Source: Candidatus Scalindua sp.
GTDB lineage: Bacteria; Planctomycetota; Brocadiia; Brocadiales; Scalinduaceae
NCBI GenBank assembly: GCA_018670825.1
Contig: JABHIW010000140.1
Span: 1 to 64,000 of the forward strand
Length of the DNA: 64,000 nucleotides
Direction of reading: 5' to 3'
Part shown: in pieces, positions 4,240-29,693 of the stretch
How positions within the stretch are numbered: position 1 is the first letter of the stretch
Layout of the letters: each line of letters begins with the position of its first letter
Translations under genes and position numbers: made by a program
Notes under the pieces: generated by a model
The model's input: only the letters and a program-made list of their open reading frames with translations
Databases searched by the model: none
Told to the model about the DNA's origin: nothing

Positions 4240-4911
4240 AATATAGGAATCCCCCTTTCTCTCCTATTTACACCATTCAAAATGTAAATTCTGCACCCAT
4301 AGTCCTTGCTCCAATCTAAGAGCAAAATGGTACTTTCTCATCAAGCCATTTTTGTTTTGCACTCTTAACCCATAAACAAAAAAAGCCCTACTGCAAAGAT
4401 ATAAAACATCTTCGGCAGTAAGGCTGTCTTTGGCAGGGTTGTTTCCCTTCAGGCGACGGAAACATTTATACTCGCCACCACACACCTGTGTATATTTAAA
4501 GACCCTTTACTTTGCGTCCTCTGGTCACCCAGAGTTTGCCCTTATAGAAATTTATTATGAAACTACTGGCACTTTTGCCATATGCGAGGAAATTACGATT
4601 GGGATTATAAACAATTCACTTTACGATAACAATCAGGGAAAACCTGAATATGCCCTTCGAAATCCCTGAATATGCCCTTCGAAATACCTTAGTTACAATG
4701 AGAGACTTTACCCGTTTTTACTCTTTGTGTTCATTGTGACTTTATTGCAAGGAATAATAATTTAAAATCTGTAATTTCCAGTTATGTACAATCGCATTAA
4801 GTGCTTTTTTATAATGTGATACTGTCAGCAGCTGGCTATGCAGAGAGTGACTCAATACAGAGTAAAGTCGAAGCATTAAAACCTCTCATACGATGTAACT
4901 GAAAAAATATT
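4240..4911. other. Gene-poor stretch with a 22-bp tandem duplication
   Basis: About 670 bases with no gene I can support. Open frames on both strands here have no domain signature. A 21-base unit (CCTGAATATGCCCTTCGAAAT) is repeated exactly at 4643-4663 and 4665-4685. The stretch ends at a truncated receiver fragment, so the region looks like decaying sequence. Confidence 0.5.
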
Positions 4912-10493: not shown

Positions 10494-11300
10494 TTACTCT
10501 TTTACCTTCTTAGCTCTATTCTGTGAATATGCATCCTGAACCGCTATATAAGGATCTATCGCATCTTCTACCAAGCCCTCATAAGTATCTCCTTTGTCTA
10601 TGGAAATATCATTGATGGCAATGTAAGTTCTAGCAGCGGTAGAGGCATATGGAGCAACAAACGTCAGAAGCGTTACCGGATCAAGCGCTATGTCTACTAC
10701 CAGTCCACAGGCATCGCGTACGTTGGATGGGCCAAAAAAAGGTAATTCAAGATGTGATCCTGCTCCCATGTCATAACGTCCAAGAGTCTGTCCAAAGTCT
10801 TCATCTTGTTGTTCCAGATGAAAGTATTTCTTTGCCGGATCAGTAAATCCAGCTCCACCGATAGTAGAATTAATAAGAAGTCGCGTTAATTCCGTACCAG
10901 CACCCTTAAATTTACCTTGAAAGAGGCAGTTGAAAAAACGACCGGGCATCCTAACATTTGTAAAGAAATTTCTAACACCTAGTCGTGCAAATTCAGGTAC
11001 AACAGTCTTGTAGCCTTTTGATACAGGCCTGAAAAAGCCATAGTATAATTTGTCATTGAAGGTAAAGATCGCTCTATTATAAGACGGGAATGAATCTTTA
11101 ACGAATGTTGCATCCATCGAAATATCTACATAATCTACATCCTCGTCTGTATCGCTGGTATCTATAACAGGACTAACATCATCACTCTTGTTTACAGCAG
11201 GCTGCTCCCTCGATGCAGTTGAATCTTCTGCAAATAAGGAGATATTAAACGTGTACATTGTTAAAACAAAAAAACACACCAATAAAACTAGTTTCCTCAT
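10494..11300 (-). CDS. mlaA: MlaA/VacJ-type outer-membrane lipid asymmetry protein
   Basis: MlaA family proteins remove phospholipid from the outer leaflet of the outer membrane and hand it to periplasmic MlaC. After a signal peptide and an acidic linker (DTSDTDEDVDYVD), the conserved body is plain: YNRAIFTFNDKLYY, FFRPVSKGYKTVVPEFARLGVRNFF, RLLINSTIGGAGFTDPA, DFGQTLGRYDMGAGSHLELPF, and LDPVTLL. There is no convincing lipobox Cys in the signal peptide, unlike E. coli MlaA. It lies downstream of an RND transporter and an MlaC-like gene on the same strand, though with a 400-base gap. Confidence 0.92.
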   Translation of the reverse strand: MRKLVLLVCFFVLTMYTFNISLFAEDSTASREQPAVNKSDDVSPVIDTSDTDEDVDYVDISMDATFVKDSFPSYNRAIFTFNDKLYYGFFRPVSKGYKTVVPEFARLGVRNFFTNVRMPGRFFNCLFQGKFKGAGTELTRLLINSTIGGAGFTDPAKKYFHLEQQDEDFGQTLGRYDMGAGSHLELPFFGPSNVRDACGLVVDIALDPVTLLTFVAPYASTAARTYIAINDISIDKGDTYEGLVEDAIDPYIAVQDAYSQNRAKKVKE

Positions 11301-11702
11301 CTGTTAACTCCCGTATTTATAGCTAGTATTAAAAATAATTTATTTCTTATATTTGTAGATTCTTCAACTTGCGTCATTATTTAAAAACTTAATCGCTCAG
11401 ATTCTAGCAAAATACATCTAAGTTGGCTACGATAATTTTTTGCCAAATCTACGAGAAAGTATCCTAACACTTTCGCAATAATAATACCAATCTTTCACTT
11501 TCATATACAAAAGTTTAATGAATCACATAAACTACTATTATACAAACGATTACAGTATTTATTAGAGAAAGAGAAGTAATAGACCAGAGTGATTAACGGT
11601 GAATAAAGCCGTAATTATTGCGGGCGCACACAAGCGCCAACTAGCAACTGCGCAATTAATGCGCATGCCCAGGTTGATTAATCAGGTTTTTACAACATAA
11701 AC
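11301..11702. other. Intergenic region between RND transporter and mlaA
   Basis: About 400 bases with no open frame worth reporting. A small GCGC-rich self-complementary patch (TGCGCAATTAATGCGCA near 11647-11663) lies just after the RND stop on the minus strand; it lacks a clear T-tract. No promoter for mlaA was identified with confidence. Confidence 0.4.
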
Positions 11703-14300
11703 CTATTTCCCAAAGGGCTTAAACACTATTATCAATCGCGGCAATAATGTTAATGCAGTAATTAGCGCAATAAACATTGCAAGACTGGTAAGAAGGCCGA
11801 AAAGAATCGTGGGAATAAAATATGATAAAACCAGGATAGAGAAACCTGCAATAATGGTAAGAGATGTATAGTACATCGCATTTCCTATACTTCCATGGCA
11901 ACGATGCATTGCATTAATATAATTCTGGTCAACTTCGTATTCTTCCTTGAATCGGTGAATATAATGAATAGTATCATCAACGGCAATACCGATACTTATT
12001 GCCGCTATAGTAATAGTTATGAAATCCAGCGGAAGTCCTGCCAACCCCATCACACCAAGTACTGCAATAGCAGAAATCACATTAGGTAGAATTGCAATCA
12101 GGGCTATCTTTATAGAACGAAATAAGACCGTAAACATAATCATTAAAGCAAGCACAACGAACCCTATAGTTAATATCTGAGAACTGAAAAGGCTTTGGAG
12201 CATATTATTATAAAGAACCATCATTCCGGCTAAGTGATATTGATTCTCTTGTAAATCAAGTTTATCCCCCATATCAAATATTATCTGTTTGAGTAAGTCG
12301 TCCCTTTTTAACCCCTTCAACGAATCTTTTATCCGTACGGTCAGACGGGCTTGATTGTCCGGAATTGATATGTAAGGAGAAAGGGCCATATCTTTAAAAT
12401 TATCAGGCAACTGAGTATAAAGAAGTGCAAGTTGGAAATCGTCAAGAGGCTTTCCTTCAGTAAATTGCTCAGCGATCTTCAACATCGTCCCTAGAGATAA
12501 AACCTTACCAATTTCAGGTAAACTATCAAGATAATCATGGACTTTCATAATTTTGGCCATCTTATCAGCAGTAAACCAATATTTGTCTGAATTATCCTCC
12601 TCTTCAAATTCGTCAAACTCGCTAAATTCGTCATCAAAGTCTGCATCAGACTCTGCAATAGTCTCTTTATTTGACAATGGAACATCCTCTATCTTCTGGG
12701 CATCTACAATAACATCAAGAGGTGTTGTACTTACTGTATCCTGGACAATAACCTCAGTATCTTGATTTGATAACAGGACATCCTTTTTCTCATCAAAACT
12801 CAAGATAATATCCAGAGGTGTTGTTCCTCCCAGATTCTGATCAATCACCTTCAGGCCTTGATAAATCTCAGTTGACTTCCGAAAATAGTCGATAAAACTA
12901 TTTTCTACCGTCAGCCTTGAAACACCTACACCTATCATAACTATGAGAAGACCTGTTACAATAAATACCGTTTTTGCATAATTCTGGGTAATATTCGCCA
13001 GTATACGAGTGAACCCGCTACAAAATTGTCGCTCCTCACCAGTTTTATTTTTTGGAAGCAGACACAAAATAGCAGGAAAAAGAAAAAAAGTAACAATGAG
13101 AGATACTACCAGCCCAACACTCATCATCAAACCAAAGTTTATGACAGGTAGAATATCACAAATCAGCAAAGAACCAAAGCCGGCAACTGTTGTTAAAGTG
13201 GTATAGAGACAAGGAACAAATTTTGAAAAAACCGTCTCTTTAACCAGTTCCATTTGAGACCACTCAGGATTTTCTACCTCCAATTCTCTATACCTGACAA
13301 TCAGGTGAATAGTCAATGCCATGGTAATAATAAGCTGCAGGGAGATAAAGTTTGATGATATTACCGTTACTTCCCATCCAAATATACCGAGTATCCCTAT
13401 CATAGAAAGCACGGAGAGTGTACAGCAGAGAACCGGCAAAACTACCCAGCGGATTTTTCTAAAAATAAACCCGAGTGCTACAATCAGAAAAATGACAATA
13501 CCAATTCCGAACACCTTAAGATCCTTTTTAACAAATGTGATCAGATCATCCGTAATCATTGATATTCCACCGAGAAACAGCTCAGCATCCTGTCTATAGC
13601 CGTCCATTATAGTACGAACAGCAGCTATATCGCTGTGCCTCTCTTTATCCATGCGGATTTTACATTCTCTATAGGCGCTCTTAAGCTGTGCAAGTTCAGT
13701 ACGCTCTGCCGGTGTGATTGTATTAACAGACAGCTTCTGCCTTAGGTCACCTCTTCTGGAAACAACTCTCTCATACTCCGCATCTTCAGTAAAATGGACC
13801 ATAAGCGCAGTCATCTTCATATCAGCACTAACCAGAAGTTCCTGATAAATCGGGCTGCTTTCTATCTCGGTCCGTGCAAGGTGTATATCAACGTCCGGAT
13901 GCTCCAGGTTCTTGATATTTGGTATCAACTCCTTGATAGGAACTGGAGGATTTCTTAGAAGTGGAACGTCAAGGATTGTAAGAACAGTGGAAACACGCTT
14001 TATTTTTTTTAATTCATCCCGCAATGAACCAAGTTTACTAAGCGTTTCAGGGGAAAAAATATCCCCCTTTGGTTTATATGTTATAAACATATAACTATGT
14101 GAACCATATGTTTTGCTTATTTTACGGTAATATTTATAATCTTTGTCATTCTCCAGTATCAGAGAATCTGCTGAGGCGTCTATCCTGAAGTGCTTAGCAT
14201 TAAAGCCAAGATACGCAAACACTCCCAACAACACAATAATGACAATAATGGGTCTGTTTAATATATACCTGGTGTAGAAATTTAGAAGAGATGATTGCAT
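11703..14300 (-). CDS. RND-superfamily (MMPL/HpnN-like) lipid exporter
   Basis: A 865-residue inner-membrane protein with the two-repeat RND layout: an N-terminal TM, a large periplasmic loop starting FRIDASADSLILEND, a cluster of TMs near residues 255-420, a second periplasmic loop, and a final TM cluster containing ISIGIAVDDTIHYIHRFKEE. This layout and the IDASADSLI segment fit HpnN-like/MMPL transporters, which move hopanoids or other lipids. The second loop carries an unusually acidic insert (DDEFSEFDEFEEEDNSD, about residues 555-575). Its neighbours, MlaC-like upstream and MlaA downstream, support lipid transport between membranes. The substrate is not visible from sequence; hopanoids are one possibility. 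Confidence 0.88.
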   Translation of the reverse strand: MQSSLLNFYTRYILNRPIIVIIVLLGVFAYLGFNAKHFRIDASADSLILENDKDYKYYRKISKTYGSHSYMFITYKPKGDIFSPETLSKLGSLRDELKKIKRVSTVLTILDVPLLRNPPVPIKELIPNIKNLEHPDVDIHLARTEIESSPIYQELLVSADMKMTALMVHFTEDAEYERVVSRRGDLRQKLSVNTITPAERTELAQLKSAYRECKIRMDKERHSDIAAVRTIMDGYRQDAELFLGGISMITDDLITFVKKDLKVFGIGIVIFLIVALGFIFRKIRWVVLPVLCCTLSVLSMIGILGIFGWEVTVISSNFISLQLIITMALTIHLIVRYRELEVENPEWSQMELVKETVFSKFVPCLYTTLTTVAGFGSLLICDILPVINFGLMMSVGLVVSLIVTFFLFPAILCLLPKNKTGEERQFCSGFTRILANITQNYAKTVFIVTGLLIVMIGVGVSRLTVENSFIDYFRKSTEIYQGLKVIDQNLGGTTPLDIILSFDEKKDVLLSNQDTEVIVQDTVSTTPLDVIVDAQKIEDVPLSNKETIAESDADFDDEFSEFDEFEEEDNSDKYWFTADKMAKIMKVHDYLDSLPEIGKVLSLGTMLKIAEQFTEGKPLDDFQLALLYTQLPDNFKDMALSPYISIPDNQARLTVRIKDSLKGLKRDDLLKQIIFDMGDKLDLQENQYHLAGMMVLYNNMLQSLFSSQILTIGFVVLALMIMFTVLFRSIKIALIAILPNVISAIAVLGVMGLAGLPLDFITITIAAISIGIAVDDTIHYIHRFKEEYEVDQNYINAMHRCHGSIGNAMYYTSLTIIAGFSILVLSYFIPTILFGLLTSLAMFIALITALTLLPRLIIVFKPFGK

Positions 14301-14349
14301 AAGATAAGTAGCTACAAGTATGGTGAGATGCTATAAACGAAAACCGCTT

Positions 14350-14955
14350 TTATAATTCTTTATTTCCTTCTTTTTCTTCTTTCATCTCTCTCATTTTTAC
14401 CAGCAAATCTTCAACCTTACCGCTTGCGAGGATATGATTGTACTGAGACCGGTATGTATGAATCAGGCTTACGCCTTCAATAGTAATATCATAAATTCTC
14501 CATCCGGTTTTACCGTTGGACATTTTATATAATATTGAATACTTCTTACCATTTGACAGCAACATTGTTGGTATCTGAACTTTCTTTCCCTTTACTACCG
14601 TAGCTGGTTTAAAAACGACTTCCTCATTGCTGAATAAATCTAACTTGTCAACGTAAAAGCGCCGAAAAGCATCAGTAAAAAGTTTTGTAAACTCGGCCCT
14701 CTGCTCGGTATTAAATTCAGACCAATGTTTTTTACCTATAGACAATTTCGCCATTAGTGGATAACCGAAAACTGTATCGGTAATCTCGATGACTTTGATC
14801 TTCTTCTGATCCAATGTCATCTCTTTATCTAACATCACGGTAAACACCTTATCGACAGACGACTTTAATATTTTTTCGGCCTCAGTTTCAACATCTGCAG
14901 CTACAACCGAAGACAAGAAGAGAAAAAATAATAAAAAGCAAGAAATCATTTTCAT
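14350..14955 (-). CDS. mlaC: MlaC/Ttg2D-family periplasmic lipid-binding protein
   Basis: A 201-residue secreted protein: signal peptide MKMISCFLLFFLFLSSVVAA, then the MlaC pattern VFTVMLDKEMTLDQKKIKVIEI, FGYPLMAKLSIGKKHWSEF, LFTDAFRRFYVDKLDLFS and a C-terminal GWRIYDITIEGVSLIHTYRSQ. These are the characteristic helices and the WRIYD-IEGVSL strand of the Ttg2/MlaC fold that carries one phospholipid across the periplasm. It starts the mlaC-RND-mlaA series; the RND gene follows 49 bases later. Use of an RND protein in place of the MlaFEDB ABC complex resembles HpnN/HpnM pairs. Confidence 0.9.
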   Translation of the reverse strand: MKMISCFLLFFLFLSSVVAADVETEAEKILKSSVDKVFTVMLDKEMTLDQKKIKVIEITDTVFGYPLMAKLSIGKKHWSEFNTEQRAEFTKLFTDAFRRFYVDKLDLFSNEEVVFKPATVVKGKKVQIPTMLLSNGKKYSILYKMSNGKTGWRIYDITIEGVSLIHTYRSQYNHILASGKVEDLLVKMREMKEEKEGNKEL

Positions 14956-18645: not shown

Positions 18646-18730
18646 GAATGATTATATTATTATCTTATGTATGGTAAGCAGGAAAGTGAGCTATACAGGA
18701 AATTTATGCGAAAGTAGGAGGTCGTATAAG

Positions 18731-19864
18731 ATGAGAAATTTCAGAATATTGGCAGGCTTTATGGTGGTTTTTCTTGTTGCTTTTATGAGTTTGAGCGCGG
18801 CAGCACATGCAAAAGATGATGATGACAGCGGTAGTGGTAAAAAGAAGGGAAAGAAATTGCCAAAACATGCCCGGGTACTCCAGGCACAGATTAACGATAA
18901 CAAGGCATTGATAGAGAATATTGAATTAACACCGGGGCCGCAGGGACTCAAAGGTGACCCGGGTGCAGATAGCACTGTAGAAGGTCCGCAGGGACCCAAA
19001 GGTGACCCGGGTACTGATGGTGTAGACGGACAATCAATACAGGGTCCGCAAGGTGAACCGGGAACAAGTAGTTGGTTTGATGGATTTGAGACCGTTACGA
19101 CAACCGGCAGTGTTCAGGTCGGAAATGATACCGCAGACTGTACCTCTGCCAATGAGGGGACTATCCGGTTCAACACGGCAGCAAAAACACTTGAAGTATG
19201 TGACGGAACTGTATGGGCATATTTAAATGCTACAGAAGTACCGGAAAAAGTAGACGCCGATAACGATGGTTACTACACAGATATTTACTACTCTGAAATT
19301 GACTGCGATGATAATGACTATAATGTTAATCCGGGTGCTACTGAGATTAGAAATGATGGATTAGATAACGATTGTAATCCTAATACATCTGATGGAGACT
19401 ATTATCAAATCGGTGATACTGGTCCCGCGGGAGGTATCGTGTTTTATATCACCGACGGAGGACAACACGGCCTGGAAGTAGCGTCGGCAGACCAGTCCAG
19501 TGCTGTGGAATGGGGATGTAGCGGCCATAAGTCAGATGCTGAAGGCACAGCACTGGGCACAGGCGCATCAAACACGGTAACTATTGTAGAAGAGTGCCAA
19601 TACACAGCTGCTAGCATAGCTTATAATCATACGGAGGGAGGATTTTCTGATTGGTACCTGCCTTCAAAAGACGAGTTAAATTTGTTGTGGTACGAGGAAA
19701 CAGTAGCAGTGCAAGCGAATATGGATGATGAGCCCTATTGGACTTCATCGCAAAGAACCAACAGAACAGCGTGGATACAGAGCTTCGATCCCTTCGATGG
19801 AGGCAGGGACGAATATGAGAACAAGAGCATCTCCCTCAGGGTGCGTGCTGTTCGGGCTTTTTAA
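18731..19864 (+). CDS. Secreted collagen-like / MopE-like protein with C-terminal Lcl-type domain
   Basis: ATG 18731 is chosen because AGGAGG lies about 12 bases upstream; an upstream ATG at 18671 lacks one. The 377-residue protein has a signal peptide (ILAGFMVVFLVAFMSLSAAAHA), a short DDDDSGSGKKKGKK stretch, a helical linker, then about a dozen collagen-like G-x-y triplets (GPQGLKGDPGAD, GPQGPKGDPGTDG). Next comes an Asp/Asn-rich segment (DADNDGYYTD, IDCDDNDYNVNPGATE, DGLDNDCNPNTSDGD) like MopE-type metal-binding repeats. The last 150 residues (GPAGGIVFYITDGGQHGLEVA ... GFSDWYLPSKDELNLLW) match the DUF1566/Lcl C-terminal type, which in Legionella Lcl is an adhesin domain. Likely surface exposed or extracellular; the Asp-rich part probably binds Ca2+. 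Confidence 0.85.
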   Translation: MRNFRILAGFMVVFLVAFMSLSAAAHAKDDDDSGSGKKKGKKLPKHARVLQAQINDNKALIENIELTPGPQGLKGDPGADSTVEGPQGPKGDPGTDGVDGQSIQGPQGEPGTSSWFDGFETVTTTGSVQVGNDTADCTSANEGTIRFNTAAKTLEVCDGTVWAYLNATEVPEKVDADNDGYYTDIYYSEIDCDDNDYNVNPGATEIRNDGLDNDCNPNTSDGDYYQIGDTGPAGGIVFYITDGGQHGLEVASADQSSAVEWGCSGHKSDAEGTALGTGASNTVTIVEECQYTAASIAYNHTEGGFSDWYLPSKDELNLLWYEETVAVQANMDDEPYWTSSQRTNRTAWIQSFDPFDGGRDEYENKSISLRVRAVRAF

Positions 19865-29304: not shown

Positions 29305-29685
29305 GAAGCAGGCAGGATGGCCGCTTCAGAAATTATTCACATGTATAATCTTTGAAGAGGAAAGTCCGAGCTCCATAGGATACAGTGCTCTGTAACGCAG
29401 AGTGGGAGTGATCCCAAGGAAAGTGCCACAGAAAATATACCGCCTTACGAGATTATCTCGCAAGGTAAGGGTGAAAAGGTGGGGCCAGAAATAGTGGCTT
29501 AATGTAAGAGCCCACCGCTCTCTAAGTGATTAGAGGGGCATGGTAAACCCCACTGGGAGAAAGGCTAAATAGAGAGGAATAGAGTGATCCGCTTTCAACC
29601 TCCGGGTAAGCCGCTTGATTCCGATGGTAACATCGGAACTAGATTAATGGTCATCAAAAACAGAACTCGGCTTATGGCCTGCTTC
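29305..29685 (+). ncRNA. rnpB: RNase P RNA, bacterial class A
   Basis: Catalytic RNA that cuts the 5' leader from pre-tRNA. The conserved blocks appear in order: GAGGAAAGTCCGAGCTCC, AACGCAGAG, AGGGTGAAAAGGTG, AAGAGCCCACCG, GGTAAACCCC, and the terminal AGAACTCGGCTTATGG. The P1 helix is visible as GAAGCAGGC at 29305-29313 pairing with GCCTGCTTC at 29677-29685, which sets both ends. It is complete, about 381 nt. A Rho-independent terminator follows at once. Confidence 0.96.
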
Positions 29686-29693
29686 AATTCTTA

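Follow-up and report, generated by a model that had tools for sequence, protein, structure and literature searches.

MlaC, a periplasmic lipid carrier, and MlaA are encoded together with an RND/MMPL pump on a contig of Candidatus Scalindua, an anammox bacterium. Judged from sequence, this cluster probably represents a proton-driven variant of the Mla system in which the pump and MlaA carry equivalent putative baits for MlaC; we assign this reading a probability of approximately 0.6. The cluster is conserved, an acid-aromatic motif that is absent from paralogous pumps recurs in the arm of the pump and in the linker of MlaA, and the two regions resemble each other within a genome. The functional link between MlaC, MlaA, and the RND pump, as put forward in the original prediction, is supported by the conserved gene order.

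The stretch of DNA analyzed (hereafter, the window) comprises 64,000 nucleotides, and the features of the cluster are listed in Table 1. The predicted mlaC-RND-mlaA series on one strand was confirmed, as the three open reading frames lie on the minus strand and all exceed their Pfam cut-offs (26 bits for MlaC, 20.5 for MMPL, and 25 for MlaA). The mlaC and pump genes are 49 nt apart. Neither an Rfam match nor a terminator-like site was detected in the gap between the pump and MlaA genes. The neighbors of the cluster encode MqnC, an MqnA-type protein, a Cache-domain protein, and two proteins without a Pfam match; a further neighbor is likely PurD, assigned by eye without a profile scan. Elsewhere in the window, a c-di-GMP-I riboswitch aptamer (4411-4550, minus strand; 60.6 bits, gathering threshold 35) and a bacterial RNase P class A RNA (29305-29689, plus strand; 298.3 bits) were detected. 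The sequence at 18671-19864 on the plus strand, read directly, encodes a protein in which collagen-like Gly-Pro-Gln repeats precede a region rich in Asp and Asn.

Table 1. Features of the mlaC-pump-mlaA cluster in the window.
Feature	Position	Strand	Evidence
MlaC, periplasmic lipid carrier, 201 aa	14350..14955	-	Pfam PF05494, 131.9 bits
RND/MMPL pump, 865 aa	11703..14300	-	Pfam MMPL, 95.9 bits; AlphaFold model with RND fold
Acid-aromatic motif and YWF, pump residues 554-576, at the end of the disordered arm in the second periplasmic domain; proposed MlaC bait (inner-membrane side)	12573..12641	-	Motif counts; AlphaFold pLDDT
Gap between pump and MlaA genes, 402 nt	11301..11702	.	Rfam and terminator search
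MlaA, 268 aa; no lipobox cysteine, no C-terminal tail of the E. coli type	10494..11300	-	Pfam PF04333, 209.1 bits
N-terminal linker of MlaA (residues 50-66), acidic; putative MlaC bait in degenerate form, on the outer-membrane side	11103..11153	-	Sequence

The MMPL profile matched the pump above the Pfam cut-off in two stretches, which gives it twin MMPL repeats. The AlphaFold model of the pump (11 sequences; mean pLDDT 76.0) has the RND fold, with MmpL4/5, MmpL3, HpnN, and NPC1-type proteins among its PDB fold matches. The pump had been described as HpnN-like; membership of this hopanoid pump family was rejected, since the scores of 98.3 bits for TIGR03480 (cut-off 751.85) and 89.3 bits for NF052374 (cut-off 1100) are both far too low. 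HAE3 was the best NCBIfam match (162.3 bits), and it did not reach its cut-off of 351.9 either. The pump gene lies outside any hopanoid biosynthesis cluster, and two other MMPL pumps of the genome (on contigs C72 and C82) are not HpnN by the NCBIfam cut-offs. The first Asp of the pair in TM10 is present in 95 of 96 family pumps and the second in 78; this pair suggests that the pump is driven by the proton-motive force. The acidic residue of TM4 is absent in nearly all family pumps. Its absence was considered as a special trait of the family and rejected, because the paralogues also lack it.

The pump family was searched for with a profile built from eleven pumps. Matches were found in 134 of 249 Campylobacterota genomes, in 32 of the 52 from the SAR324 group, and in 18 of the 395 from the phylum to which genome G394 belongs. 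Among 392 Planctomycetota genomes, there were 8 strong members, for which the scores of the pieces add up to at least about 1090 bits; at E 1e-60, 44 genomes matched, weaker paralogues included. Within the window's genus, the pump family is present in five of six genomes, and one further genome of the same order (G354) also has it. The profile search gave no pump-family match in the sixth genome of the genus (G362), and none was listed for 17 same-order genomes and 2 genomes from other genera of the same taxonomic family. With the pump itself as the query, MlaC and MlaA adjoined the pump in 10 of the 10 loci found, the MlaA of L019 being cut by the contig end. The nearest named records of the pump belong to Candidatus Scalindua (L017, L018, and L020; best-segment identity 82-84%).

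Loci were picked by hand to spread the scores and were read with their flanks. The 96 loci come from four groups that were treated as phyla, namely Planctomycetota, Campylobacterota, SAR324, and the G394 phylum. They include 58 Campylobacterota loci (from the 134 genomes with matches; two are the named records L025 and L026), 13 from SAR324 (32 genomes), and 15 from the G394 phylum (18 genomes). L019 and L020 were omitted, as their contigs are equal in length to those of L065 and L064. The pump lies near MlaC in 87 of the 96 loci and near both MlaC and MlaA in 85. MlaA-MlaC-pump is the commonest order (73 loci), and the order of the window, MlaC-pump-MlaA, occurs in 9. The remaining orders are pump-MlaC-MlaA with MlaA reversed (3 loci), MlaC-pump near a contig end (1 locus), and pump-MlaC (1 locus, in G904), where MlaA lies about 0.6 kb beyond the stretch read. 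The pump stands alone in 9 loci. MlaA is encoded elsewhere in 8 of these 9 genomes, adjoined by MlaC in all 8; in the ninth, G1076, it was not found elsewhere in the genome. Outside Scalindua, the gaps are all 30 nt or shorter, or the genes overlap, in 74 of 80 loci with a neighbor. Because the series is conserved, the cluster is not a chance neighborhood. For 20 of the 115 Campylobacterota genomes without the pump, MlaA was looked for, and it is absent in 18 of these 20; the MlaA linker of the other two reads EQFKANY, with no acids between the aromatics. The tree was rooted on one paralogue, as the paralogues are not monophyletic. The Scalindua pumps group with the Planctomycetota loci L067 and L070 (support 1.0), and this group stands weakly (0.45) beside three sequences of the G394 phylum.

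Residues 505-572 of the pump have a pLDDT below 50 in the AlphaFold model and are predicted to form a disordered arm, whose motif in the window reads EFDEFEEE...YWF. Arms were extracted by alignment from the 96 family pumps and from 22 paralogues. The latter are Planctomycetota pumps without MlaC or MlaA in their 1.5-kb flanks; three are partial, one of them cut within the region. The insert that separates the GGTTPLD strand from the YWF turn has a median length of 35.5 residues and a mean net charge of -9.5 in the family, versus 8 residues and -0.6 in the paralogues. The motif was defined, after inspection of the sequences and hence post hoc, as two aromatic residues separated by 2-4 residues, of which two or more are acidic and none is Lys or Arg. 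By this rule, it is present in 88 of the 96 family pumps (1000 residue shuffles: mean 16.8, maximum 30) and in 0 of the 22 paralogues. The acidic loop insert of the original prediction, which lies at pump residues 554-576, thus proved to be specific to the family. The motif occurs in 9 of 10 Planctomycetota arms, 11 of 15 from the G394 phylum, 13 of 13 from SAR324, and 55 of 58 from Campylobacterota, and YWF directly follows the arm in 85 of the 96 pumps. In the Planctomycetota locus L070 (genome G203), the pump arm extends to about 150 residues with many DEFDEF-type repeats, and the MlaA linker is similarly expanded.

E. coli MlaA, a protein of 251 aa, has a C-terminal segment that recruits MlaC. 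An acidic tail of this type is absent from the linked MlaAs, that of the window included: a median of 7 residues follows the domain, and 15 or more follow it in 1 of 85. The PF04333 match of the window MlaA runs to residue 264 of 268, leaving 4 residues, and its match to a solved MlaA stops at chain residue 205 of 236. The only cysteine in its first 30 residues is residue 9, which lies inside the hydrophobic stretch, so no lipobox is present; by eye, the MlaAs of L022, L023, L024, and L026 appear to have one. The AlphaFold model of MlaA (mean pLDDT 44.5) was left unused.

The acid-aromatic motif was found in the N-terminal linker of 65 of the 85 linked MlaAs (shuffles: mean 16.2, maximum 26), two empty linkers (L173 and L214) being counted as misses. 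The groups contribute 11 of 13 (SAR324), 49 of 55 (Campylobacterota), 2 of 8 (G394 phylum), and 3 of 9 (Planctomycetota). The six Scalindua linkers, including that of the window, are acidic, though none passes the motif rule; the window MlaA carries only a degenerate form of the proposed bait. In pump genomes, the MlaAs lying apart from the pump have the motif in 7 of 9 cases, and the second MlaA of G962 lacks it. The controls were 27 MlaAs from G394-phylum genomes in which the pump profile had no match. Longer flanks were examined for 20 of them and placed 14 next to MlaEFD. The control MlaAs are mostly short-tailed (median 7) and have acidic linkers, with the motif in 8 of 27 (shuffles 2.2) and in 5 of the 14 shown to adjoin MlaEFD; none of the 14 MlaDs encoded at these loci has it. 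Because the motif occurs in MlaAs without a pump, the MlaA bait is not exclusive to pump systems. Most simply, the MlaA linker would act in these lineages as a bait for MlaC regardless of which system works at the inner membrane, and the pump would have gained a copy of this bait.

The likeness of arm and linker within a genome was evaluated by local alignment of every MlaA linker with every pump arm, followed by 5000 shuffles within phyla. For 92 pairs, from which the two empty linkers were excluded, the mean score of own pairs was 38.9 versus 34.4 for the shuffles (0/5000); for the 60 pairs below 70% pump identity, it was 39.7 versus 33.8 (0/5000). By group, the result was 0/5000 in Campylobacterota (37 pairs), 76/5000 in SAR324 (8 pairs), and 70/5000 in the G394 phylum (12 pairs); the three Planctomycetota pairs were too few for a group test. 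With composition removed, the excess persisted at 70% identity (0/5000) and was 115/5000 at 55% (25 pairs). The match thus weakens where pairs are few, as in SAR324, the G394 phylum, and the 55% set. A DDPFA variant occurs in both the pump and the MlaA of G1002 and G962 (close relatives) and of G920, the genes lying apart there. Shared ancestry alone does not make unrelated proteins alike, but it reduces the effective number of observations.

The window MlaC belongs to the MlaC family and has a hydrophobic N-terminus, read from the sequence, as in a signal peptide. Its best NCBIfam match is HpnM (72.1 bits), and the MlaC equivalog scores 30.2 bits; both are below the cut-offs. The genome encodes three MlaCs, and the copy on contig C15 is a close paralogue of the window MlaC (248 bits). 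This copy (L027:8886-9479) stands alone: neither MlaA nor the pump was found in the 18 kb read, and no MlaEFD-like frame was recognized nearby. A clean conserved counterpart to the acidic arms was not found in MlaC, the E. coli contact positions being only partly kept. Of 87 MlaCs, 45 have a basic residue where E. coli has R90, and 68 and 72 have one at the sites of A75 and Q80, respectively (12 and 11 of 14 in MlaEFD-linked MlaCs). The published K84 of E. coli MlaC corresponds to S84 when the K-12 record is translated; K is at 83 there. The bulk charge of MlaC was rejected as the counterpart, since the isoelectric points of 11 linked MlaCs range from 5.7 to 9.9 without a rule.

No MlaFEDB frames were recognized around the cluster, so the claim that the pump stands in place of the MlaFEDB complex holds for the cluster. 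It fails for the genome (93.5% complete), in which the sole MlaA match is that of the cluster and two MlaD genes lie on other contigs. These belong to two MlaEFD operons (L029 on C112 and L030 on C17), each composed of an STAS-MlaE fusion, MlaF, a long MlaD, and a short gene. The short gene of the C112 operon encodes a PqiC-family protein (PF03886, 50.9 bits; cut-off 26), and that of the C17 operon has no Pfam match. MlaC and MlaA profiles gave no match in the 12-14 kb stretches around either operon. Therefore, rather than a complete mlaFEDB with its own mlaC and mlaA beside an unconserved cluster, the genome holds operons without MlaC or MlaA and a conserved cluster. The operons resemble the Mpc (Mla-Pqi chimera) of Brucella, which includes a PqiC-like lipoprotein and for which no MlaC is reported in the accessible text (PMC12436622). 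Among 12 pump-bearing genomes, 8 have an MlaD match and 4, for which completeness is not given, have none. In the Campylobacter locus L076 (LR291e), MlaE, MlaF, and a long MlaD precede a protein of 197 aa that matches the PqiC family at 22.6 bits, short of the cut-off of 26. The Campylobacter MlaEFD may be Mpc-like too.

RND pumps with this fold usually handle lipids at the outer face of the inner membrane. In the proposed mechanism, MlaC would shuttle lipid, presumably phospholipid, through the periplasm between MlaA in the outer membrane and the RND pump in the inner membrane. Flexible acidic arms, bearing acid-aromatic motifs of one type, would project from the pump and from MlaA. MlaC is the likely receptor of both motifs: one site on it may bind either arm, so that MlaC would be drawn to the lipid portal of whichever protein carries that arm. 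Distinct from E. coli, which uses the C-terminal tail of MlaA, the bait would here lie at the MlaA N-terminus, with a second copy placed on the pump. The flow is somewhat more likely to be retrograde, from the outer to the inner membrane. The vesicle overproduction of Campylobacter jejuni mlaA mutants (PMC6549495) fits this direction, but mlaEFD mutants also overproduce vesicles (PMC8794745). Given the like phenotypes, MlaA and MlaEFD of C. jejuni may share a pathway.

These phenotypes also bear on a reading with two inner-membrane ports, in which the same MlaC feeds the RND pump as an accessory exporter and a separate MlaEFD as the importer. We regard it as doubtful. It accords with the similar vesicle phenotypes, the two MlaEFD operons and two further MlaCs of the Scalindua genome, and the MlaD matches in most of the 12 pump-bearing genomes. 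It accords poorly with the four lacking an MlaD match and with the Scalindua operons themselves, which are without MlaC and MlaA in the stretches read and resemble a bridging Mpc, a system described without MlaC. It is unlikely that the arms bind something else (divalent cations, peptidoglycan, or a porin) or are mere low-complexity spacers, so that their likeness is one of composition. In favor of this reading are the acidity of both regions, the predicted disorder of the pump arm, the post hoc definition of the motif, and the occurrence of acidic MlaA linkers without the pump; however, the motif counts are far above those of residue shuffles of the same regions, the within-genome excess persists with composition removed, and YWF directly follows most arms.

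It is very unlikely that the cluster encodes an exporter dedicated to hopanoids or ladderanes, as with HpnM/HpnN. The search for hopanoid genes did return a squalene-hopene cyclase, encoded on another contig of the genome; HpnM is the best, if sub-threshold, NCBIfam match of MlaC, and HpnN is among the fold matches of the pump. The pump nevertheless scores far below the HpnN cut-offs, and its family is not general to the order, as the 19 genomes listed without a match indicate. Moreover, because the family is common in Campylobacterota, which are not known for hopanoids or ladderanes, a hopanoid-specific role is improbable.

If the proton-driven Mla variant is correct, it suggests that an RND pump could power Mla lipid traffic without MlaFEDB, and it bears on the debated direction of Mla transport. 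We see an even chance that a second, ABC-independent Mla pathway exists in at least four phyla, in which the RND pump would mimic the outer-membrane bait as an address label for MlaC. The MlaA and MlaC of Campylobacterota would then belong to the pump, and not to MlaEFD as has been assumed. One motif with two addresses would explain how a lipid carrier in the periplasm locates each of the two membranes. For Scalindua, the cluster offers a possible route for moving some of its lipids.

Several known systems share parts of this arrangement. NPC2 passes sterol to NPC1, and NPC1-type proteins are among the fold matches of the pump; in both cases, a soluble lipid carrier would hand its cargo to an RND-fold protein. 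The NPC2-NPC1 pair is eukaryotic, carries sterol, and docks through a folded domain. The HpnM-HpnN pair of hopanoid clusters likewise joins an MlaC-family protein with an RND pump. The window cluster differs from it in that its proteins score below both cut-offs, MlaA is part of the cluster, and the pump has a disordered acid-aromatic arm. The titles and abstracts searched, with most subscription papers outside the search, included none that joins MlaA or MlaC and an RND/MMPL pump as one system. Brucella Mpc, as described, is a different system from the window cluster, without MlaC or MlaA. In C. jejuni, Cj1371-Cj1372 are mlaA-mlaC in one cluster, as in the window; the published partner is an MlaEFD encoded elsewhere, and the term RND is absent from the main text of the study (PMC6549495). 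Cj1373 is termed a membrane protein gene in another report (PMC11955535). As the Campylobacter record L026 has the order MlaA-MlaC-pump, Cj1373 is probably this pump. A further parallel is the E. coli Mla system (MlaA-OmpC, MlaC, and MlaFEDB). There, the acidic MlaA tail contacts basic MlaC residues and acts as a bait (PMC10719372), the isolated tail binds MlaC with a KD of 57 μM, and the beta6-beta7 loop of MlaD reaches the same MlaC cleft (PMC10245069). The window cluster shares the MlaA and MlaC families and an acidic flexible MlaA segment, for which a bait role is proposed here. Its inner-membrane partner is an RND pump, and in place of a C-terminal tail, the putative bait lies in the N-terminal part of MlaA, with a second one on the pump.
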